Source: Phycisphaerae bacterium
GTDB lineage: Bacteria; Planctomycetota; Phycisphaerae; Phycisphaerales; Phycisphaeraceae
Length of the DNA: 64,000 bases
Assembly (NCBI GenBank): GCA_030425705.1
Contig: JAUHZU010000002.1
Coordinates: forward strand, 558,001-622,000
Direction of reading: 5' to 3'
Within the stretch, counting starts at the first letter, position 1, and the number at the start of each line of letters is the position of its first letter. Made by a program: the position numbers and the translations under genes. A model generated the notes under the pieces. The model did not search any database, was not told the origin of the DNA, and saw only the letters and a program-made list of their open reading frames with translations. Positions 2,709 to 41,067 of the stretch are shown here, in pieces.

Positions 2709-3995
2709 ATGACGAACCCCCGCTCTACCGCCCTGCCCGACGCCGCGACGCTGGACCAGCGTTTCCCCGCCGTCGCGCCCGAGCGGTGGACGCTCGACCC
2801 CGGCTGCACGTTCCTGAACCACGGCTCGTTCGGTGCGACGCCGCGCTCGGTGCTCGAACGCCAGCAGGACCTGCGGGCCGAGATGGAGCGGAACCCGCTG
2901 CGGTTCCTGCTCGACGCCGCGCCGCCGCTGATCGAGCGGTCGCGCGGGGTGGTCGCGGGGCTGATCGGCGCGGACCCATCGGACGTGGTGTTTGTGCGCA
3001 ACGCGACGGCCGGCGTAAACGCCGTGCTGCGCTCGCTGCATTTCGAGCCCGGCGACGAGGTCCTGTACCTGAGCCACGCGTACAACGCCTGCGCCAACGT
3101 CGTGCGTTTCGTCGCCGAGCGCTGGGGCGCGAAGGCGGTCGAGGTCGAGCTGCCCTGGCCGATCGACGACCCCGCGCAGGCGACCGAGGCGGTGCTCTCC
3201 GCGGTGACGGGTCGCACCAAGTTAGCGATGCTCGACCACGTGACGAGCGTGTCGGGCCTGGTGCTGCCGATCGCGGACATGGTCGCGGGCCTGAAAGCAC
3301 GCGGGGTCGAGACGCTGGTCGATGCCGCGCACGCCCCGGGCATGCTGCCGATCGACATGCAGCAGATCGGCGCGGCGTACTACACGGCCAACTGCCACAA
3401 GTGGCTCTGCGCCCCGAAGACCGCGGCGTTCCTCTACGTCCGCCCGGACATGCAGGACGGCATCGAGCCGGAGCTGATCAGCCACGGCTCGAACCACTAC
3501 GGCAAGGGCAAAGGCGACCTGCAGATGCGCTTCCACTGGCTGGGGACCAGCGACCCGACGCCGGTGATCTGTATCGCCGACGCGGTCGCCGTGCTGGAGT
3601 CGCTCTTGCCCGGTGGGCTGGACGCGCTGATGCACCGGAACCACGCGATGGCCGTTGGCCTCCGGCGCGTGGTGTGCGACGCCTGGGGGATCCAGCCGCC
3701 CTGCCCCGAGTCGATGCTCGGGTCGATGGCGACGCTGCCGCTGTTTGTCGGCCGGCCGCGCTGGGACGATTCCGACGCGGCGGAGAAGCAGAACGCCCTG
3801 ATGCACCGTGTGCAGCAGTCCCTGCGGGTGGAGGTGCCGATCGTGGACATCGCGCTCGGCGGGGGCGGCCCGGTCGTGATCCATACACGCTTCTCGTGCC
3901 AGGCCTACAACCACGGCGCACAGGTGTTGCCGTTCATCGAGGCCTTCGCCGACGTGGTGGACCCTACGGTGTTTGACGGACCAGCTCGCGGGTGA
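2709..3995 (+). CDS. Class V aminotransferase, isopenicillin-N epimerase-like
   Basis: A 428-residue PLP-dependent fold-type I enzyme. Visible features are FLNHGSFGATP at the N-terminus (typical of the isopenicillin N epimerase-like branch), FVRNATAGVNAVLRSL, LDHVTSVSGLVLPI, the LVDAAHAPGM aspartate motif, and NCHKWLCAPKT containing the PLP lysine. The substrate is unknown; epimerase, desulfurase or lyase chemistry are all possible. TACACT at 2697-2702 ends only 6 nt before the ATG, so a leaderless transcript is possible and there is no clear Shine-Dalgarno. The last 32 bases overlap the 3' end of dnaA on the opposite strand. Confidence 0.85.
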   Translation: MTNPRSTALPDAATLDQRFPAVAPERWTLDPGCTFLNHGSFGATPRSVLERQQDLRAEMERNPLRFLLDAAPPLIERSRGVVAGLIGADPSDVVFVRNATAGVNAVLRSLHFEPGDEVLYLSHAYNACANVVRFVAERWGAKAVEVELPWPIDDPAQATEAVLSAVTGRTKLAMLDHVTSVSGLVLPIADMVAGLKARGVETLVDAAHAPGMLPIDMQQIGAAYYTANCHKWLCAPKTAAFLYVRPDMQDGIEPELISHGSNHYGKGKGDLQMRFHWLGTSDPTPVICIADAVAVLESLLPGGLDALMHRNHAMAVGLRRVVCDAWGIQPPCPESMLGSMATLPLFVGRPRWDDSDAAEKQNALMHRVQQSLRVEVPIVDIALGGGGPVVIHTRFSCQAYNHGAQVLPFIEAFADVVDPTVFDGPARG

Positions 3996-5439
3996 GCGAC
4001 GCGACGAGCGTGGAGGGCGCGGTCTGCCCCGCGCCGCCGGGCAGCAGGAGCGGCGCATCGCCTACGAGCAGCTTGGTCATGCGCTGGCCCGCGGTGATGA
4101 CGGTGGAGTGGGTCTTGCGGCCCAGGTGCCGGGCGATCTCGGGGTAGCTCATGGGTGTGAGTTCGCGCGCGAGGTGGACGACCAGCGAGCGGGCGAGGAC
4201 GACCTGCTTGTTGCGCGACGGGCCGCCGAGCTGCGCGGGCTCGAGCAGCAGCCGGTCGCAGACCGCGCGGGTGATCGCGTCGAACTTCACGGGCCGGCGG
4301 ACGCGGGGCTGGGCCAGCTCGGGGAGCTGTTCCAGCAGGGCCCGGCCGACGGGCGTGAGCTTGCCGGGCGTCTTGCGCTCGGGCCGGTCGGTGAGGGTAG
4401 CCAGGGCGTGGAGCTTGGACAGCGCGCCCTCGATCTCCCGGACCGAGCCGTCGTAGCGGTCGGCGAGCTGGTCGATGACCGCCGGCTGGAGGAACAGCCC
4501 GCGCCGCCGGGCCAGCTCGGCGATGATGGCTTTCCGCGTCGCGGGGTCCGGCTCGATCAGCTCGACGACCAGCCCGCGCACGCAGCGCGACACCAGCGCA
4601 TCGCTGAACGCGGTGATCTGCCGCGGGTGGCTGTCGCTGGCAAGCACGACGCGGGCCCCGGCCAGGTCGTTCTCCTCGAAGCAGTGGAGGAATTCCTGCT
4701 GGGTCTTCTCCTTGCAGGCGAGGAACTGCACATCGTCGATCGCGAGCAGGTCCAGCCGGCGGATGCGTCGGCGGAAAGCGTCGAGCTTGCCGGCCCGGAC
4801 CGCGGTGATGTACTGGTTGGTGAACTGCTCGCCGGTGAGATAGACGACTTTCGCGTCCGGGTGCTGCGCGAGCGTGGCGTGGCAGATGCCCTGGAGCAGG
4901 TGGGTCTTGCCGACGCCGCAGGCCCCGTGGAGGAACAGCGGGTGGCCGGCGGTGGCGTCGGCAAGGTCGGCCAACCGTTGGGCGGCGGCGAGCGCGAGCT
5001 GGTTGCTCGGCCCGGCGATGAAGCGTTCCAGCCGGTGGCGGTAGGGCGACGCGCTGCGGGCGGCGGACGCGGCCCGGCGGGCCGGGGCGTGGGTCCGTGC
5101 CGCGGGCTGCGCGGGGGTCGGCACGCTTGCCGGCGCGTTCGCGGGTGCGTCGGCCTGCTCGGCGGGGGCGAAGCGGTCGGGGTGGACGCAGAGCTCGACG
5201 GCGACGTCGTTGCCGACGACCGTGCGGGCGGCGTGCTCCAGCTGCGGGCGGAAGTGCTTGCCGATCCAGTCGGCGGCGAAGCGGTTGGGGACCGAGACCC
5301 GGAGGGTGTCGCGGTCCTGCTCGAACGAGAAGCGTGCGGACCGGTCGAACCACATGGCGTACTTCTGGGGCCCGAGGTCGTGTTCGACACGGCTGGCGAC
5401 GCGCGCAGCGATAGCATTCACCTGCAGGGTTGTCGTCAA
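3964..5439 (-). CDS. dnaA: Chromosomal replication initiator DnaA
   Basis: DnaA binds 9-mer boxes at oriC and opens the duplex. From the chosen start it is 491 residues. Domain I begins QVNAIAARVASRVEHDLGP; an Ala/Pro-rich linker spans about residues 92-130. The AAA+ domain has Walker A GACGVGKTH (172-180) and LLAIDDVQF. The C-terminal DNA-binding domain has MSYPEIARHLGRKTHSTV, the DnaA signature. I choose the TTG complementing 5437-5439, because AGGAG lies about 7 nt upstream and the conserved domain starts there. The same frame runs on to 5655 but that part looks non-conserved. The 3' end overlaps the aminotransferase gene by 32 bp. Confidence 0.93.
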   Translation of the reverse strand: MTTTLQVNAIAARVASRVEHDLGPQKYAMWFDRSARFSFEQDRDTLRVSVPNRFAADWIGKHFRPQLEHAARTVVGNDVAVELCVHPDRFAPAEQADAPANAPASVPTPAQPAARTHAPARRAASAARSASPYRHRLERFIAGPSNQLALAAAQRLADLADATAGHPLFLHGACGVGKTHLLQGICHATLAQHPDAKVVYLTGEQFTNQYITAVRAGKLDAFRRRIRRLDLLAIDDVQFLACKEKTQQEFLHCFEENDLAGARVVLASDSHPRQITAFSDALVSRCVRGLVVELIEPDPATRKAIIAELARRRGLFLQPAVIDQLADRYDGSVREIEGALSKLHALATLTDRPERKTPGKLTPVGRALLEQLPELAQPRVRRPVKFDAITRAVCDRLLLEPAQLGGPSRNKQVVLARSLVVHLARELTPMSYPEIARHLGRKTHSTVITAGQRMTKLLVGDAPLLLPGGAGQTAPSTLVASLTRELVRQTP

Positions 5440-32902: not shown

Positions 32903-35785
32903 ATGCCTGACTGTCTGCTCCGGCGCGTGTGCGCCCTGGCCGTTTGTGCCGTTGTCTCGACGACCCTGCTGGCCGTGCCTGCCCAGGCGCAGCAGCGCTA
33001 CGAGCTCGCGGAGGGCGAGACCGTCGGCGTGATGGGCAACGCCTTTGCCGAGCACCTGGCCCGCAGCGGCTACTTCGAGGCGCTGGTGCAGGCGGCCCAC
33101 CCCGAGGCCCGCGTCACCGTGCGCTCGGTCCCGTGGTCGGGCGACGAGGTCGGCCAGCGCATCCGCGAGATGAACGTGCCCACCGCCGAGCAGCGCCTCG
33201 AGCAGTACGGTGCAGACGTCGTCGTGATGTTCTTTGGCATGAGCGAATCGTTCAGCGGCAGCGATGGGCTCGAAGCGTTTGAGCGGCAACTCACGGCACA
33301 CCTCGACGACTACCTCGGCCGACAGTTCAACGGCGAGAGCGCCCCGCGTCTGGTCCTGGTCTCCCCGATCGCGCACGAGGACCTGGGCGCACCGCTGCCG
33401 ACCGGCGACGTGGTCACGGCACACAACGCGGACCTGCGGGCGTACACCGGCGTGATGCGCCGCGTGGCCGAGGCGAAGGGTGTGCGGTTTGTGGACCTGC
33501 TCGAGCCGTCGCTGGCGCTCTACGCCGAGCACGACGCGGCGCTGACCAGCAACGGCATCCACCCCAACGAGCTGGGCTGCTTCTACTTCGCCAAGGCGAT
33601 CGGTGAGCAGCTGGGCTGGATGGAAGGCGCGGCCGGCGACGCGGGGGCCGCGGACACGCTGCGTGCGCTGGCGTTCGACAAGTTCTACCACGAGCGCCTG
33701 CACTACGCGGCGACGAACACCGAGTACGTCTGGGGCCGGCGGGCCGATCCGTTTGGCGTGATCAACTTCCCCGAGGAGATGGCGCAGCTCGAGACGATGG
33801 TCGCCGTGCGGCAGCAGGCGATGTGGGACATGGACAAGCCCAGCCCCGCGCAGTTGTTCGCCGACGCCCCGACCGGCCCGGCCGTGTGGGAGCACACCCC
33901 GACCTCACGCGATTTTCCCGAGGACACGTGGACCCCGACCCCGGTGGAGCTGATCGACCGCGGCGGCTCGATCGGCGGCGAGATTCAGAGCCCCGACGCC
34001 TTCCTGGAGACCTTCACCCTCGCCGACGGCTACGTCGCCGAGTGTTTCGCCTCGGAACAGGACTTTCCGGAGCTGGCCTGCCCGCTGGCGCTGACCTTCG
34101 ACGACCGCGGCCGGCTGTGGGTCCTGGTCTCCCCGACCTACCCGCATGTCCTGCCCGGCGAACGGCCCGACTGTAAGCTGCTGATCCTCGAAGACACCGA
34201 CGGTGACGGCAAGGCCGACGGCATGACCGTCTTCGCCCGGTACCTGGACATCCCCACCGGCTTCGCGATCGACGGCGACGGCGTGGTGTACGTTGGCCAG
34301 GCGCCCTACCTCTTCAAGCTCACCGACACCGACGGCGACTCCGTCGCGGACCGGAAGGAAACGATCTACACCGGCTTCGGCATGCCCGACTCGCACCACA
34401 CGATCAGCGCGTTCGTGTGGGAGCCCGGCGGCACGATCCTGATGCACGAGGGGGTCTTCACCCGCACCAACGTCGAAACGCCGTATGGCACGATGCGCAC
34501 CCGCGATGCCGCCGTCTGGCGCTTCGACCCCCGCACCCTCGAGCTGACACCCATCGCCCACACCGGCCACCCCAACCCCTGGGGACACACCATCGACCAG
34601 TACGGCCACGGCATCATGATGGACACCTCGGGCACCCATCAGTTCAACTTCGCTCACCTGATCTCGCCCTATGTGTACCCCCACAAGCCCGGCAAGCCCG
34701 CCCCCGTGGTCTCCCGCGGTCGCCCGACCTCCGGCAGCGAGATCATCTACAGCCGGCACTTCCCCGAGGATGTCCAGGGCTCCTACCTGTCCAACAACGT
34801 CATCGGGTTCCACGGCACGTTCTGGGACCGGCTGAACTTCGATGGTAGCGCGCACTCGGGCTACACCTCCGAACGCATGCCCCAAGACCTGATCCAGAGC
34901 AGCGACTCGAACTTCCGCCCCGTCGGCTGCGAGCTCGCGCCCGACGGCACGCTGTACATCATCGACTGGTGCAACCCGCTGATCGGGCATATGCAGTTCT
35001 CCGTGCGGGACCCGCGACGGGACCACACGCACGGCCGGGTCTGGCGCATCCGCCACGCCGAGCGCCCGCTCGTGGACGCCCCCGACGTGGCCGGCGCCGA
35101 CGGTGAAGCGTTGCTGGAGCTATTGAAGACCTACGAGCAGAACGCGCGCGACCGTGCCCGCCGACGCCTGCAGCGCGGCGACCCGGCCGTCGTTCTGCCG
35201 ATGCTCGATGCCTGGCTCGAAGACCTCGACGAGGACGCGGCGGACTACGGCCGGCTGATGCTCGAAGGGCTCTGGATCCACCAGGCGCACGGCAGCATCA
35301 ACGTCGACCTGCTGGAAGAAGTGCTGGACCTCGACGACGCCGCGGCCGTCGCGGGCGGGGTGCGCGTGCTGCGGTACTGGCTGCAGCTGGGCCACATCGC
35401 CGACCGTGACGCGGACCGGCGGATCCGCCGTCTGACCGACCACGAGGACATGCGGGTGCGGCTGGAACTGGTGATGGCCTGCGCGTACCTGGCGGACGCC
35501 GACGACGCGAAGGACTACGTCTCGGAGATCGCGGAGATGCCGATGGATCAGGGCCTGCAGATCGCCCTGCAGGAGACGCTGCGTTACCTCGACAGCCGGC
35601 CCGACCCGGCCGGGGCGCAGCAGGGCAACGCCGGCGAGGCCGAGGGGAACAACATCGCCCGGCTGCTGGAGCTCAAGGGCATGCCCGTGGAGGCGCTTGC
35701 GCAGCAGGACCTCACCGACACGACGGTCGCCGCGGCGGTGCTGGAGCGTGAAGACGCCCCTTTTCCCTACGCCGGCAAGCGCTGA
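32903..35785 (+). CDS. SGNH-hydrolase plus PVC-type membrane-bound dehydrogenase protein, N-terminal part
   Basis: A 960-residue secreted protein. After the signal peptide (ending PAQAQQ) an SGNH/GDSL-like domain runs to about residue 300: GETVGVMGNAFAEHL, VVVMFFGMSESF, SNGIHPNELG. A PVC-type dehydrogenase beta-propeller follows (LALTFDDRGRLWVLVSPTYP, FAIDGDGVVYVGQ, NPWGHTIDQYGHGI, LAPDGTLYIIDWCNPLIGH), then HEAT-like helices. Related proteins usually continue into a cytochrome c domain. Here the frame stops at 35783-35785 and the cytochrome part lies in the -1 frame downstream, so this may be one gene split by a real or programmed frameshift. AGAGGACC precedes the ATG at 32903. Confidence 0.85.
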   Translation: MPDCLLRRVCALAVCAVVSTTLLAVPAQAQQRYELAEGETVGVMGNAFAEHLARSGYFEALVQAAHPEARVTVRSVPWSGDEVGQRIREMNVPTAEQRLEQYGADVVVMFFGMSESFSGSDGLEAFERQLTAHLDDYLGRQFNGESAPRLVLVSPIAHEDLGAPLPTGDVVTAHNADLRAYTGVMRRVAEAKGVRFVDLLEPSLALYAEHDAALTSNGIHPNELGCFYFAKAIGEQLGWMEGAAGDAGAADTLRALAFDKFYHERLHYAATNTEYVWGRRADPFGVINFPEEMAQLETMVAVRQQAMWDMDKPSPAQLFADAPTGPAVWEHTPTSRDFPEDTWTPTPVELIDRGGSIGGEIQSPDAFLETFTLADGYVAECFASEQDFPELACPLALTFDDRGRLWVLVSPTYPHVLPGERPDCKLLILEDTDGDGKADGMTVFARYLDIPTGFAIDGDGVVYVGQAPYLFKLTDTDGDSVADRKETIYTGFGMPDSHHTISAFVWEPGGTILMHEGVFTRTNVETPYGTMRTRDAAVWRFDPRTLELTPIAHTGHPNPWGHTIDQYGHGIMMDTSGTHQFNFAHLISPYVYPHKPGKPAPVVSRGRPTSGSEIIYSRHFPEDVQGSYLSNNVIGFHGTFWDRLNFDGSAHSGYTSERMPQDLIQSSDSNFRPVGCELAPDGTLYIIDWCNPLIGHMQFSVRDPRRDHTHGRVWRIRHAERPLVDAPDVAGADGEALLELLKTYEQNARDRARRRLQRGDPAVVLPMLDAWLEDLDEDAADYGRLMLEGLWIHQAHGSINVDLLEEVLDLDDAAAVAGGVRVLRYWLQLGHIADRDADRRIRRLTDHEDMRVRLELVMACAYLADADDAKDYVSEIAEMPMDQGLQIALQETLRYLDSRPDPAGAQQGNAGEAEGNNIARLLELKGMPVEALAQQDLTDTTVAAAVLEREDAPFPYAGKR

Positions 35786-35799
35786 CCGCGCTCGCCGGC
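35758..35799 (+). promoter_or_regulatory. Candidate programmed -1 ribosomal frameshift site
   Basis: In the frame of the upstream gene the codons read GCC-CCT-TTT, forming the slippery heptamer C-CCT-TTT at 35758-35764. After a 6-nt spacer comes a hairpin: GCCGGC (35771-35776) pairs with GCCGGC (35794-35799), extended by AGCG/CGCT (35778-35781 with 35789-35792). The zero-frame TGA (35783-35785) sits in the loop. A -1 slip joins the upstream protein to the downstream cytochrome frame. An indel in the C4T4 run (mutation or sequencing error) is the competing explanation. Confidence 0.45.
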
Positions 35800-35838
35800 G
35801 AAGACCCCGCAGCGCAGGCGCGGCAGCTCATCGCCTCG

Positions 35839-36909
35839 TTGCGCGGGGCCCGGTTCGAGGTCGAGCGGGCCGCCCGCTCGCTCGGCGAGTTGCTGCTGTC
35901 GCTGGACGCGGCGGGGCTCCCCGCGATCGAAGCCGACCTGGTTTCGCTGCTGGATGATCCGATGCCGGCGAAGCGGGCGCTGGCGACCGCCGGGCTGGTG
36001 CGGGCGGGCCGGCCTCTGAAGGAACTCGCCGAGCGCGACCGCGACGCGCTGCTGTCCGCGGTGTCCGCGATGTCGGCCGAACAGCTCCCCGCCAGCGCGG
36101 TGACGGACCTGATGGCGATGGTCGATGACGGGACGGTTGACACGACCACGGGCGTGCTCGAGGCGGCGCGCCTCGCGACCGACCGCGAGGCGCTGTTTGT
36201 CTGGCTCGCGGCGAAGGTCGACCCGGCACGGGGGCTGGGCTTCGACCAGTGGGGCGATGCCCACCGACGCGCGATGGCCGCGCTGCAGGGCATGCACACC
36301 GTCGACCGCGCCGACTGGCCGGCGGGCTACCGCGAGTATTACCTTGATCCCCCGGCCGAGGAGGTCTACCTGCGTGGCGAGGCGCTGTACCACGTCGAAG
36401 AAGGCGGATGCATCAAGTGCCACGGGCCCGACGGGCGCGGGGCCGAGGGCTTCCCGCCGCTGGCCGACTCGCCCTGGGTGATGGGCGATCCGCGTCGGGC
36501 CGCGACGATCGTCGAGCACGGGCTCACCGGCGAGATCGTCATGCACGATGGCCGGCGCTTCCATTCGACCATGGACCCGCTGCGGCAGGGCGCGAATCTG
36601 TCGGGCGCCGACGTCGCGGCGATCCTGACCTACATCCGCCGGAGCTGGGGCAACTTCGGTCCGGTCGTGACGTACGAGGACATCAAGACCCTGCCCAGCC
36701 CGTCGGAGGGCGGCGTGTGGAAGGTCGACGAGGTGCTGATGCACTTCCCGCTGGCGTACGACCGGCTGCTGCCGGGCGGGGACGCCCCGCGTCGGCCGGG
36801 CGTCGCGGGCTGGCACGCGCCGCGCGGGGGGTTGGCCGTACTGCTTGGCGTCGTGCTGCTGTTCAACGTGCTGTTTGCGGGGATGACCTACCTCGCCAAC
36901 CGCCGCTGA
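35839..36909 (+). CDS. HEAT plus cytochrome c domain protein with C-terminal membrane anchor (-1 frame continuation)
   Basis: From the first possible start (TTG 35839) 356 residues; the frame is open back to 35752 with protein-like sequence RRQALTALAGEDPAAQARQL, so translation probably enters from the upstream gene. HEAT-like helices are followed by a class I c-type haem domain ([21 protein letters not shown], Cys191/Cys194/His195 from that [26 protein letters not shown] with the possible Met ligand). A final membrane helix [19 protein letters not shown] is followed by ANRR. No Shine-Dalgarno precedes the TTG. Likely the electron-accepting end of the dehydrogenase at 32903, anchored in the membrane. 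Confidence 0.8.
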
Positions 36910-36929: not shown

Positions 36930-37769
36930 ATGCGCGAGATGTCGGCCAACGAGAACAACGAACTGCCGCGCGACCCCGGCGGGCTTGCCCCCGCGTTGCT
37001 GTTTGATCTGTCCGGCCGGGTCGCGGTTGTGATCGGTGGGACGGGGGTGCTTTGCGGACGCATGGCCGAGGGCCTGGCGGCGGCGGGGGCCGCGGTCGTC
37101 CTGGTCGGCCGAGACGGCGCGAAGGCCCAATCCACGATCCAAGCCATCGCCGCAGCCGGCGGCAGTGCCTCATTCATCGCCTGCGACGCGACCGACCATC
37201 ACGCCATCGAGGCGTTGCGCGACGGGGTCCTGCGGGAGCACGGGCGGGCCGACATCCTGGTCAACGGCGCGGGCGTCAACGCGGCGACGCCGTTCCTCGA
37301 GGTCCCCGAGGACGAGCTGGACCGGCTGATCGCGGTGAACCTCAAGTCGGTCTTCCTCGCGTGCCAGGTGTTCGGCGGGTACTTCGTCGAACGGGCCGGG
37401 GCGGGGGGCACGGGGGCAAGCATCATCAACCTCGGCTCCGCGTCGGGCCTGACCCCGCTGTCGCGGGTGTTCAGCTACTCGCTGACCAAGGCGGCGGTGC
37501 ACAACCTCAGCAAAAACCTCGCGCGTGAGTGGGCGTCGCTCGGCGTGCGGGTCAATGTGCTGGTCCCCGGCTTCCTTCCGGCTGAACAGAACCGCAAGGT
37601 GCTGACCCCCGAACGCGTCGCATCCATCCTCTCGCACACCCCGATGGGCCGGTTCGGCGAGCCGGACGAATTGATCGGCGCGACGCTGCTGCTCGCCTCG
37701 GATGCCGGCCGGTTCATGACCGGGCACGAGCTGGTCGTCGACGGCGGCTTCAGCGCGATGACGATCTAG
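36930..37769 (+). CDS. SDR-family oxidoreductase, probable mannonate (fructuronate) oxidoreductase
   Basis: A 279-residue short-chain dehydrogenase. Visible motifs are [20 protein letters not shown] (cofactor), [10 protein letters not shown] (NAG), [22 protein letters not shown] (Ser, Tyr, Lys triad) and the C-terminal [17 protein letters not shown]. Because the next genes are glucuronate isomerase, gluconokinase and a LarA-type epimerase, I infer reduction of D-fructuronate to D-mannonate. The start is either ATG 36930 or ATG 36939; TAGAAT at 36926-36931 would favour 36939 as a near-leaderless start. There is no clear Shine-Dalgarno. Confidence 0.85.
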
Positions 37770-37799
37770 CACAGCTGCCTATGCGCCCGAATCTCACTC

Positions 37800-39251
37800 A
37801 TGGCCTACCTCGACGACAACTGGCTGCTCGGCAACAACCTAGCGCGGCGGCTCTGGCACGAGGTCGCCCGCCCGCTGCCGATCCTCGACTACCACAACCA
37901 CCTCTCGCCCCGCGAGATCCTTGAGGATGAGCCGCCGCCGTCGCTCGCGCACCTCTGGCTGGCGCACGACCACTACAAGTGGCGGGCGATGCGTTGGTGC
38001 GGTGTCGACGAGGCCCGCATCACGGGCAGCGCCGAGCCGGTCGAGAAGTTCCGCGCGTACGCCCGGGTGATGCCCGAGTTGGTTGGCTCGCCGCTGTACG
38101 ACTGGACGCACCTGGAGCTGCGTCGGGTCTTCGGCATCGACCTACTGCTCAGCGCCGCGACCGCCGACGAGGTCTGGCAGGAGGCGCAGTCGCAGATGCC
38201 CCGGCACCGCCCGCGTGCGCTGCTCGAGCGGTTCAACGTCGCGCTGGTCGGCACGACCGACGACCCGGCCGTGCCGCTGGACGACCACCGCCGGCTCGAC
38301 GCGGCCTGGCGCTCGGGCGATCTGACGCCGCGCATCGTCCCGACGTTCCGCCCCGATAAGGCCCATTCAGGGGACGACCCGGCGGCGTTTGCGGCGTGGT
38401 GCGACCGGCTTGCGTCGGTCTCTGGTGCAGAGGTGGCGGGCTTGGACGGGCTGCTCACCGCGTTGGCGTCTGCCCGGCAGGCGTTTGTCGCGCTCGGCGC
38501 ACGCGCGAGCGACCACGCGCTCGTCGCGCTGCCGGACTGCGCCCCGGATCGCGGGCTTGCGGACCGCGCGGTGCAGCGGTTGTTGGCCGGCGAGTCCGTG
38601 ACGCCGGCGCAGCAGGACGCGTTGGCGCTCGAGGTGCTCCGTGCCTCGGCATATGGGAACGCCGAAGACGGCTGGGCGATGCAGCTACACCTGGGGCCGC
38701 TGCGGAATGTGTCGCCTTCGCTCCTCGGGTCCGTCGGGCCGGACGCGGGCGCGGACGTGATGGGTGATGCGCCGCAGGCAGCGGGGCTCGCCCGGTTCCT
38801 GGGGGGTCTGGATGCCGAGGGCCGACTGCCGCGTACGGTGCTGTACAACCTGAACCCATCGGATAACGCGGCCTTAGCGACGCTGGCCGGGGCGTTCCAG
38901 GGCGGGGGCTTGCGGGGGCGGGTGCAGTGGGGCGCGGCGTGGTGGTTTAACGATTCGGTGCCGGGCATGCGCACGCAGCTGCGCGATCTCGCGTCCATCG
39001 GCGCGCTCGGCCCGTTCATCGGCATGCTCACCGACTCGCGGTCGCTGCTGTCGTTCTCGCGTCACGAGATGTTCCGCCGTCTGCTGTGCGGGTTCGTTGC
39101 CGAGCTGGCCGGGGCGGGCGAGGCACCGGACGACTTCGAGCTGCTGTCGGCGCTGGTCCGCGGCATCGCTTTTGACAACGCGGCGGCGTACTTTGGCTTC
39201 GAGCTGGACCCCGCGTCTGCCGCGCCGGCCGAGGCCGGGGGCACGGCATGA
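37800..39251 (+). CDS. uxaC: Glucuronate isomerase
   Basis: A 483-residue uronate isomerase of the amidohydrolase superfamily. It interconverts D-glucuronate and D-fructuronate, and often D-galacturonate and D-tagaturonate. The N-terminus has the family segment PILDYHNHLSPREI (His32, His34), then WLAHDHYKWRAMRWCGV. Further on come VVGTTDDPAVPLDDHR-like (here LVGTTDDPAVPLDDH), WAMQLHLGPLRN and MLTDSRSLLSFSRHEMFRRLLCG. Length is standard. It overlaps gluconokinase by 4 bp (ATGA), fixing it within the sugar-acid operon. Confidence 0.95.
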   Translation: MAYLDDNWLLGNNLARRLWHEVARPLPILDYHNHLSPREILEDEPPPSLAHLWLAHDHYKWRAMRWCGVDEARITGSAEPVEKFRAYARVMPELVGSPLYDWTHLELRRVFGIDLLLSAATADEVWQEAQSQMPRHRPRALLERFNVALVGTTDDPAVPLDDHRRLDAAWRSGDLTPRIVPTFRPDKAHSGDDPAAFAAWCDRLASVSGAEVAGLDGLLTALASARQAFVALGARASDHALVALPDCAPDRGLADRAVQRLLAGESVTPAQQDALALEVLRASAYGNAEDGWAMQLHLGPLRNVSPSLLGSVGPDAGADVMGDAPQAAGLARFLGGLDAEGRLPRTVLYNLNPSDNAALATLAGAFQGGGLRGRVQWGAAWWFNDSVPGMRTQLRDLASIGALGPFIGMLTDSRSLLSFSRHEMFRRLLCGFVAELAGAGEAPDDFELLSALVRGIAFDNAAAYFGFELDPASAAPAEAGGTA

Positions 39252-39748
39252 GCGGGCCGCTCCGCCTGGTGGTAATGGGGGTGTCCGGCTGTGGGAAGTC
39301 GCACATCGGGGCACGGCTGGCCGAGCGCTTGGACGCGGTCTTTCTGGATGGCGACGACTACCACCCGGCCGAGAACGTGGCGAAGATGGCGGCGGGCCGA
39401 CCGCTGGACGATGCGGACCGTGGGCCCTGGCTCGACCGTCTCGCACGGGAGCTGGCGTCGCGCGGGCGGGTGGTCCTGGCGTGTTCGGCGCTCAAGCGTC
39501 GGTACCGCGACGTGCTGCGGTCGGCCGAGGGGACGCGGTTTGTGTTCCTGGACGGCGGGGCCGAGCTGATCCGCTCGCGCGTCGAGACCCGCACGGGCCA
39601 CTTCATGCCGTCCGGGCTCCTGCGCAGCCAGTTCGATACGCTCGAGCGGCCGGGCGACGATGAGCCGGACGTACTCCGTGTGGCGATCGACACCGCGCCC
39701 GAGCGCGTGGTCGAGCAGGCGCTGTGCGCCCTGGGGGTGTCATGCTGA
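39248..39748 (+). CDS. gntK: Gluconokinase
   Basis: A 166-residue thermoresistant-type gluconokinase that phosphorylates D-gluconate to 6-phosphogluconate. The P-loop is GVSGCGKS (residues 11-18), then FLDGDDYHPAENVAKMAAGRPLDDADRGPWL, ACSALKRRYRDVLR and GHFMPSGLLRSQFDTLE, all hallmarks of GntK. It overlaps uxaC upstream (4 bp) and the epimerase downstream (7 bp). A gluconate kinase inside a glucuronate operon without mannonate dehydratase or KDG kinase is the key hint for an epimerase route. Confidence 0.95.
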   Translation: MSGPLRLVVMGVSGCGKSHIGARLAERLDAVFLDGDDYHPAENVAKMAAGRPLDDADRGPWLDRLARELASRGRVVLACSALKRRYRDVLRSAEGTRFVFLDGGAELIRSRVETRTGHFMPSGLLRSQFDTLERPGDDEPDVLRVAIDTAPERVVEQALCALGVSC

Positions 39749-41067
39749 TCGAGACGGGCGGCGTGGATGCGGTGATCTCGCCGACGCAGTTGGATGCGCA
39801 CGTCGATGGGCTGGTCGAGCAGTGCGTGCTGGAGCGTGGGCTGCGGCGGGTGCTGCTGGTCCCGCCGGACCACACGCGTCTGCACAGCCAGGCGGGGCGG
39901 ATCACCGCGCGGTTCTACCGCCGGCTCGCCGACGCCGGAGTGGAGGTCGCGGTGATGCCCGCGCTCGGCACGCACGCGCCGATGACGCCCGCCCAGTGCG
40001 ACCTCCTTTTCGGCCGGGGCGCGATCCCGTACGACGCGGTCCGGCCGCACCGCTGGCGCGACGACCTGATCACGCTCGGCGAGCTGTCCGCCGACGAGGT
40101 GGCGCACTTTTCCGATGGGCGTTACGCGCAGCCGCTGCCGGTGATGGTCAACCAGGTGCTGCTGGAGGGCTGGGACCTGGTCGTCTCGCCGGGGCAGGTC
40201 GTCCCGCACGAGGTGATCGGGCTGGCGAACTACACGAAGAACCTGATGATCGGCCTGGGCGGGCGGGACCTGATCCACCGCAGCCACTTCCTGGGCGCGG
40301 TGTGCGGGATGGAGTCGGCGATGGGGCGGGTCGACACGCCGGTGCGTGTGGCGCTGGACCGCGCGTTCGATCGTTTCCTGGCACCGCGGGTCGAGGCGTT
40401 GTTTGTGCTGACGGTGGTGCAGGACACGGCCGAGGGCGTGGTGCAGCGCGGTCTTTTCGCGGGTGTCGGTGGGCCGGACGCGACTGGCGGTGCCGCGTTC
40501 CGCGCGTCGGGTGCGCTGGCGCGGGCGGTGAACGTGCAGTGCGTGGACGAGCCGATCGCGCGTTGTGCCTGCTGGCTCGACCCCGAGGAGTTCCACAGCA
40601 CCTGGCTGGGGAACAAGGCGGTGTACCGCACCCGAATGGCGATGGCCGACGGCGGGGAGCTGCTTGTGCTCGCGCCGGGGGTGCGCAGCTTCGGCGAAGA
40701 CCCGGCGATCGACACGCTCATCCGCCGGCACGGCTACCGCGGCACACCCGCGACCCTCGCCGCGCTCGAGACCGACCCGGACCTGGCCGACAACCTCGCC
40801 GCCGCGGCGCACCTGATCCACGGCTCGAGCGAGGGCCGCTTCACGGTCGTCTACTGCACCGACCCGTCCGCCGGCGGCCTGCCGCGCGAGGCCGTGGAGT
40901 CTGCCGGTTACACTTGGCGTCCGCTGCACGAGACGATGCGGGCGCTGGGCATCGACGCGGGCACCCCGGACGGCGCGCGGCGCGCCGCCGACGGTGGGCC
41001 CCTGACGTTTATCCGCAACCCCGCGCTCGGGCTCTGGTCCTTGCGGTCGACATGGGAGCTGGCATGA
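39742..41067 (+). CDS. LarA-family nickel-dependent epimerase, probable mannonate/gluconate 2-epimerase
   Basis: A 441-residue LarA-superfamily protein. The N-terminal motif VPPDHTRLHS (Asp43-His-Thr-Arg46) and ALGTHAPMT (His78) match the LarA catalytic and cofactor regions. VSPGQVVPHEVIGLANYTKN gives the second His and the Lys expected to hold the nickel-pincer cofactor. LarA relatives racemise or epimerise alpha-hydroxy acids, and gluconate 2-epimerases are known within the superfamily. Lying between GntK and a permease, with overlapping reading frames, it most likely converts D-mannonate to D-gluconate. Maturation proteins (LarB, LarC, LarE) must be encoded elsewhere. Confidence 0.8.
   Translation: MLIETGGVDAVISPTQLDAHVDGLVEQCVLERGLRRVLLVPPDHTRLHSQAGRITARFYRRLADAGVEVAVMPALGTHAPMTPAQCDLLFGRGAIPYDAVRPHRWRDDLITLGELSADEVAHFSDGRYAQPLPVMVNQVLLEGWDLVVSPGQVVPHEVIGLANYTKNLMIGLGGRDLIHRSHFLGAVCGMESAMGRVDTPVRVALDRAFDRFLAPRVEALFVLTVVQDTAEGVVQRGLFAGVGGPDATGGAAFRASGALARAVNVQCVDEPIARCACWLDPEEFHSTWLGNKAVYRTRMAMADGGELLVLAPGVRSFGEDPAIDTLIRRHGYRGTPATLAALETDPDLADNLAAAAHLIHGSSEGRFTVVYCTDPSAGGLPREAVESAGYTWRPLHETMRALGIDAGTPDGARRAADGGPLTFIRNPALGLWSLRSTWELA

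Follow-up and report, generated by a model that had tools for sequence, protein, structure and literature searches.

The window analyzed here is a 64,000-nt stretch of contig JAUHZU010000002.1 of a Phycisphaerae bacterium, whose genome (G000) comprises 4.1 Mb in 21 contigs. It contains a gene whose coding sequence passes from one reading frame into the -1 frame (Table 1). The zero-frame product has a signal-peptide-like start (judged by eye), followed by a GDSL/SGNH hydrolase-like domain, DUF7133 (TIGR02604) and the start of a HEAT-like helical repeat, the last of these seen in a weak structure model. Domain searches matched this product to a GDSL lipase-like domain and to DUF7133/TIGR02604, the N-terminal domain scoring 181 bits against a curated TIGR02604 cut-off of 122.2, and returned no match to a dehydrogenase family. 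The structure model of the zero-frame product had a pLDDT of 67, and its PDB matches were GDSL esterases and propeller proteins such as sialidases; naming a fold from this model was dropped as the model was too weak.

The CxxCH haem motif of the PVC-type heme-binding family was not found in the zero frame downstream of the point where the family match begins and is present as CIKCH in the -1 frame, where a cytochrome c domain was also identified by a Pfam match. The structure model of the -1 part (pLDDT 88) matched the haem domain of Ralstonia nitrite reductase and Thermus cytochrome c552, with the C-terminal helix at residues 356-382. The reading of the window and the domain matches bore out the preliminary description of a 960-codon frame ending at a TGA with a cytochrome c domain in the -1 frame. 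At the junction the zero frame reads GAC GCC CCT TTT CCC TAC GCC GGC AAG CGC TGA. The -1 frame becomes open at 35752, only 12 nt upstream of the slip, and stays so up to its stop; its first start codon is TTG 35839, 25 codons past the slip, and no obvious Shine-Dalgarno sequence was seen by eye at this TTG, as had been remarked earlier. Since the -1 frame of the window opens so shortly before the slip and without a start codon, translation of the stretch between the slip and the next start must, on this reading of the frames, enter from the zero frame. In the structure models the slip position falls at a turn preceding a helix of the repeat, which would place the end of the short form close to a boundary between repeats.

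Table 1. Features at the frame junction of the window, and the dnaX loci carrying an A10 run in the genus
Feature	Genome	Position	Strand	Remarks
Zero-frame CDS	G000 (window)	32903..35785	+	960 codons and TGA; sequence reading, domain matches, weak model
GGAG, possible Shine-Dalgarno-like stimulator	G000 (window)	35743..35746	+	11 nt upstream of the heptamer, by eye
Slippery heptamer C_CCT_TTT	G000 (window)	35758..35764	+	in phase, in the short frame overlap; identical in G001
-1-frame continuation	G000 (window)	35764..36909	+	remainder of the HEAT-like repeat, then a class I cytochrome c domain with CIKCH and a hydrophobic helix at the C-terminus, ending at TGA 36907-36909
Spacer	G000 (window)	35765-35769		
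Hairpin	G000 (window)	35770..35800	+	predicted fold; 7 bp = 35770-35776/35794-35800, 5 bp = 35778-35782/35788-35792, loop UGACC
Zero-frame stop TGA	G000 (window)	35783..35785	+	inside the hairpin loop; TAA at the equivalent spot in G001
dnaX locus with A10, L227	G000			
dnaX locus with A10, L235	G001			
dnaX locus with A10, L232	G002			
dnaX locus with A10, L224	G003			
dnaX locus with A10, L230	G004			

The genus sample consisted of the genome of the window (G000) and genomes G001, G002, G003 and G004, amongst which the contig of G003 ends before the site. A -1 split at the same domain boundary was observed in all four genomes that cover it (G000, G001, G002 and G004), these four being related to each other, and each of the splits has an in-phase slippery sequence of the type X_XXY_YYZ within the overlap of the open reading frames. 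The nearest relative, G001, is identical to the window in the heptamer, the 5-nt spacer, the GGAG located 11 nt upstream and a stop 18 nt past the slip, and in its outer 7-bp stem one of the seven pairs is changed on both sides (compensatory, by eye). Rather than the in-frame fusion without heptamer or stem that had been named as possible counter-evidence, this close relative shares heptamer, stem and split. The conservation of heptamer and stem proposed for checking in relatives was seen in G001 but not in G002 and G004, which are split at A10 runs instead; their junctions read CAA AAA AAA AAG TGA and ACG AAA AAA AAA ATG, respectively, and precede the slip of the window by 20-21 codons, counted in each gene itself, or by up to ~30 columns of the alignment. 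A long A run occurs at the junction only in these two of the four genomes, the corresponding run being C4T4 in the window and C3T4 in G001 with no long A or T run in either. As read from these genomes, two different signals would serve at this one boundary within the genus.

The in-phase C-CCT-TTT heptamer that had been claimed for the junction was confirmed at the position given in Table 1. A hairpin with the zero-frame stop in its loop was likewise recovered, but its dimensions differ from those first described (7 + 5 bp and a 5-nt spacer, not 6 + 4 bp and 6 nt). The predicted stability of the window hairpin was -26.4 kcal/mol; the z-score against shuffled sequences was -6.07 in the window, -4.14 in G001, -1.85 in G004 and -0.90 in G002. 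Amongst the 40-nt windows of the respective gene, the hairpin ranked 5 of 3964 (window), 12 of 3951 (G001), 18 of 3394 (G004) and 1674 of 4000 (G002) in stability, and the observed stability was reached by 22 of 2000 synonymous recodings of the window and 44 of 2000 of G001. A stimulatory structure 5-9 nt downstream of the slip is predicted for the window and G001, only weakly for G004 and not for G002. The GGAG upstream of the heptamer also falls within the codons for LER, residues that the window and G001 share; the anti-Shine-Dalgarno sequence GGATCACCTCCT has one occurrence in G000 and one in G001. In-phase C_CCT_TTT is rare in both genomes: the 114,305 codons sampled from G000 (a sample that excludes the window site) hold one instance, which belongs to a different gene, and the 94,980 sampled from G001 hold it solely at this junction. 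TTT and CCT are minority codons in G000, making up 0.21 and 0.09 of their sets. In a study in E. coli, C_CC.U_UU.U belongs to the efficient class H_HH.U_UU.Y and is among the motifs that shift by more than 0.10% without stimulators (PMC4066793); the slippage rules applied here are those of E. coli.

Both parts of the gene show selection at the codon level. Between G000 and G001, dN and dS were 0.12 and 0.52 for the zero part (dN/dS ~0.24) and 0.40 and 0.92 for the -1 part (dN/dS ~0.44); between G002 and G004 the values were 0.13 and 0.78 (dN/dS ~0.17) and 0.44 and 1.28 (dN/dS ~0.34), with dS in both comparisons high and approximate. Judged by these codon comparisons, the -1 part is under purifying selection. 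Its protein sequence is also conserved between G000 and G001 across the 24-25 codons that separate the slip from the next start codon. Decay of the -1 part was considered as a reason for its faster divergence and was rejected because the C-terminal part also diverges faster in six fused orthologues, where its identity is 0.35-0.46 versus 0.53-0.65. About 8 of the first 20 third positions past the slip differ between G000 and G001 (by eye), so that synonymous sites are not clearly protected.

To place the split in a wider context, the joined query was searched against 80 relatives and its own genome, and profile searches covered the family (51 genomes), the class (397) and the order (400), the class and order sets being samples of larger groups, with the best three candidates per genome scored. 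These searches recovered the orthologue in the five genus members, in G003 only as far as a contig end. The order search (E <= 1e-90) identified an orthologue outside the genus in seven genomes (G080, G432, G520, G558, G563, G574 and G692). All seven of these full-length orthologues run in a single frame with no stop and match nearly the whole profile; six were also read by tblastn as L044-L049, pairing being by open reading frame length and contig. An in-phase heptamer within 90 nt of the site was absent in five of the six fused orthologues examined, and the sixth (L048) has only GGGGGGC, 30 nt downstream of the site. L048, though fused, has a very stable hairpin at the site (lowest 0.3%). 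The family members outside the genus G022, G027 and G028 match the N-terminal part of the profile only. Amongst the best 80 of 217 confirmed loci of the wider relatives, no split was found outside the genus: 54 were fused, 15 had no CxxCH in the frame crossing the stop, six were cut by the end of the stretch, three were missed by the anchor motif (L044-L046, fused by tblastn), and the two that were split are those of G004 and G002. An initial search of relative contigs with the C-terminal part as query found no relative. Additionally, no -1 split was seen in the other DUF7133 genes of G000, G001, G002 and G004 (seven loci): CxxCH lies in the same frame in three (L195-L197), L202 (293 codons) is without CxxCH, and in L203-L205 the fetched sequence ends ahead of any CxxCH, leaving these three without a verdict.

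The A10 runs of the genus were compared with those at the junctions. Perfect A10 places number one in G000, two in G001 (one of them an A13), three in G002, one in G003 and two in G004. In every one of the five genomes, one place is the dnaX site, reading GAA AAA AAA AAG CTA with a -1 stop 9-12 nt later; the open reading frames match the NCBIfam DNA polymerase III gamma/tau family, with TIGR02397 above its cut-off in four, the cut reading frame of G004 scoring below it. As judged from these sequences, the genus carries a classic-type tau/gamma dnaX recoding site. In none of the five assemblies is the frame broken by the dnaX run, which on that evidence is a built-in positive control that these assemblies keep an A10 in frame. 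Another A10 is exactly the junction described here, accounting for one of three places in G002 and one of two in G004; simple arithmetic puts the chance of such a run on the right strand within the ~30-nt overlap near 1 in 100,000 per genome, the figures for the two genomes not being independent as these are related. The third A10 of G002 (L225, C7:7490-7499, minus strand) lies near the end of a 184-codon open frame, and the A13 of G001 (L228, C1:209563-209575) is the longest A run shown among these genomes.

Frame changes elsewhere in the assemblies were surveyed at two stringencies. A loose frame-transition scan covered 464 kb of G000, with 149 candidates, and 400 kb of G001, with 87, and gene borders and shadow frames are expected amongst these; 42 and 11 of them, respectively, were without a nearby start codon. 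Seven of the 42 lie in a single 20-kb stretch (L158, G000 C16:180001-200000), perhaps of disrupted genes. A stricter scan left eight candidates in the same length of G000 and five in that of G001, one of the latter being the G001 junction. The window junction was visible in it only as an antisense shadow, its own strand falling below thresholds, and the scan is therefore not very sensitive. Two other possible transitions that this codon-score scan flagged in the window, at 3977 and (minus strand) at about 331, may be gene boundaries. Amongst the other CCCCTTTT sites of G000, 10 of 24 lie in uninterrupted coding-like frames, and 14 were below the criterion and gave no verdict.

These data bear directly on the explanation that the split is a homopolymer sequencing or assembly error, the real gene being one base longer and fused. 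A -1 slip site always resembles a run that is one base too short, the loose scan gave more start-less candidates in G000 than in G001, and another -1 shift of frame occurs in the G001 gene close to its C-terminal membrane helix (L039, about 5350-5380), without a slippery heptamer, and is likely an indel or assembly error. Nevertheless, this explanation is extremely improbable, the least probable of those considered, given that the split recurs in four genomes, in two of which it sits at another run and codon, that heptamer and hairpin are common to the window and G001, that the dnaX run and the 10 uninterrupted sites stay in frame, and that the stricter scan yields so few candidates, the junction included in each genome. 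It is the same homopolymer indel that had been offered earlier as the sober alternative to a slip signal. Slippage by transcription alone is also highly unlikely. The A10 runs of G002 and G004 are long enough for it, and poly-A slippage is known to rescue an interrupted gene (PMC4256274), but the C4T4 and C3T4 runs of the window and G001 are too short by the lengths quoted in PMC3711429 (An with n>7, Tn with n>8).

Gene fission, in which the cytochrome part is a separate gene translated through coupling, reinitiation or an overlapping start, is favoured by the GTG that overlaps the zero-frame TGA in G002 and by the GTG at codon +6 in G004. In G001, 696 nt of open -1 frame precede the slip and include a start codon 393 nt ahead of it, which on sequence alone leaves room for an overlapping start in that genome. 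Export is required of a c-type cytochrome, and no signal peptide was seen by eye at the candidate starts; in the window, moreover, the next start lies inside conserved sequence and the frame opens without one, and fission is accordingly rated very unlikely. The strongest rival is that a real frameshift became fixed in the genus and is tolerated through 'saviour' slippage, the short product being without function. Past the slip the short forms soon terminate, with unrelated tails, and long-lived tolerated frameshifts have been described for mitochondria (PMC5009743, whose abstract uses the word 'savior'). That two sister clades have different slip sites at this boundary, one of the clades with a hairpin, suggests upkeep instead, and we consider mere tolerance unlikely, though well ahead of the other alternatives. 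It is in any case contained within the reading that the gene is expressed by -1 recoding, from which it differs solely in whether the short form matters.

Altogether, expression of this gene by -1 recoding at these sites is very probable, the best reading being slippage of the ribosome at C_CCT_TTT and, at A10, of either the ribosome or the polymerase. Slippage in vivo, its efficiency and its programming, in the sense of a role for the short form, are what we infer from this evidence. Ribosomes that keep the zero frame would stop at TGA 35783 and release a secreted 960-residue protein with the hydrolase-like domain, DUF7133 and a truncated HEAT repeat, which would lack haem and anchor. In a fraction of ribosomes of the window species and G001, the hairpin 5 nt downstream would help two tRNAs to slip by -1 on C_CCT_TTT, and translation would then yield a full-length protein of about 1335 residues that adds the rest of the HEAT repeat, the cytochrome c domain and a membrane anchor. 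In the sister species G002 and G004, the A10 may be crossed by slippage of the ribosome (A_AAA_AAG / A_AAA_AAA) or of RNA polymerase. A short soluble protein and a long membrane-bound one are thus probably both products of this one gene. More tentatively, the genus may have evolved a translational switch at one boundary, with two unrelated slip signals, that sets the ratio of soluble enzyme to membrane cytochrome, in which case recoding would decide both the location of the protein and its electron acceptor.

Programmed -1 recoding as such has been described before; its probable use in this gene would be new. In the orfA/orfAB genes of IS elements and in gag-pol, a short zero-frame product and an extended -1 product are made by means of a heptamer and a downstream structure. 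The predicted arrangement is the same here, with motif rules taken from PMC4066793; unlike IS elements, this gene is not a mobile element by its domains, and no gene but this one, in a single genus, was found to be split. The dnaX tau/gamma system resembles this gene in its in-phase slippery run and two product lengths, and its A10 motif is common to the G002 and G004 junctions; its product is, however, a clamp loader rather than an exported electron-transfer protein, the heptamer of the window is C_CCT_TTT, and in the genus' own dnaX the long product comes from the zero frame, whereas here it would come from the -1 frame. Ribosomal and transcriptional versions of dnaX recoding are described in different species, one type needing recoding for the longer product, and dnaX is named with insertion sequences and prfB among the best known prokaryotic cases (both in PMC3711429). 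In E. coli copA, a cellular bacterial gene, it depends on the slip whether a small soluble or a membrane protein is made (PMC5009743); there slippage leads to the short soluble form, while here it would lead to the long membrane form. Citrobacter tssM is an interrupted gene giving two length variants by transcriptional frameshifting (PMC4256274) and resembles what A10 could do in G002 and G004, in contrast to the window and G001, which are without a long homopolymer. PVC-type heme-binding CxxCH proteins (TIGR02604/DUF7133) are of the same domain family, with full-length orthologues outside the genus in one frame and those of the genus in two.

By titles and abstracts, no report that this gene family, or any cellular gene of a planctomycete, undergoes frameshifting was found in the open-licence literature, nor was the term 'PVC-type heme-binding' found in the literature of that kind that was searched; PMC3711429 mentions 'Planctomycetes' once, in a table. 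If true, the present case would be one of recoding in a planctomycete electron-transfer protein that is exported, where sister clades carry two alternative slip signals at the same boundary and fused relatives can serve for comparison, and it illustrates how a recoded gene could be mistaken for a broken one.

Upstream of the gene, DUF1592-type and DUF1552 proteins are encoded in the window and in G001, and these genes were not found in the fetched stretches of G002, G003, G004 or the six fused relatives. Downstream sugar-acid genes were not found in two G001 stretches around the gene. In the window, they form a cluster (36939-41067) encoding a mannonate-oxidoreductase-like SDR, a glucuronate isomerase (UxaC), a gluconokinase and a nickel-dependent LarA-like hexonate epimerase, which suggests, from gene content, that functions of sugar-acid breakdown are encoded near the gene.
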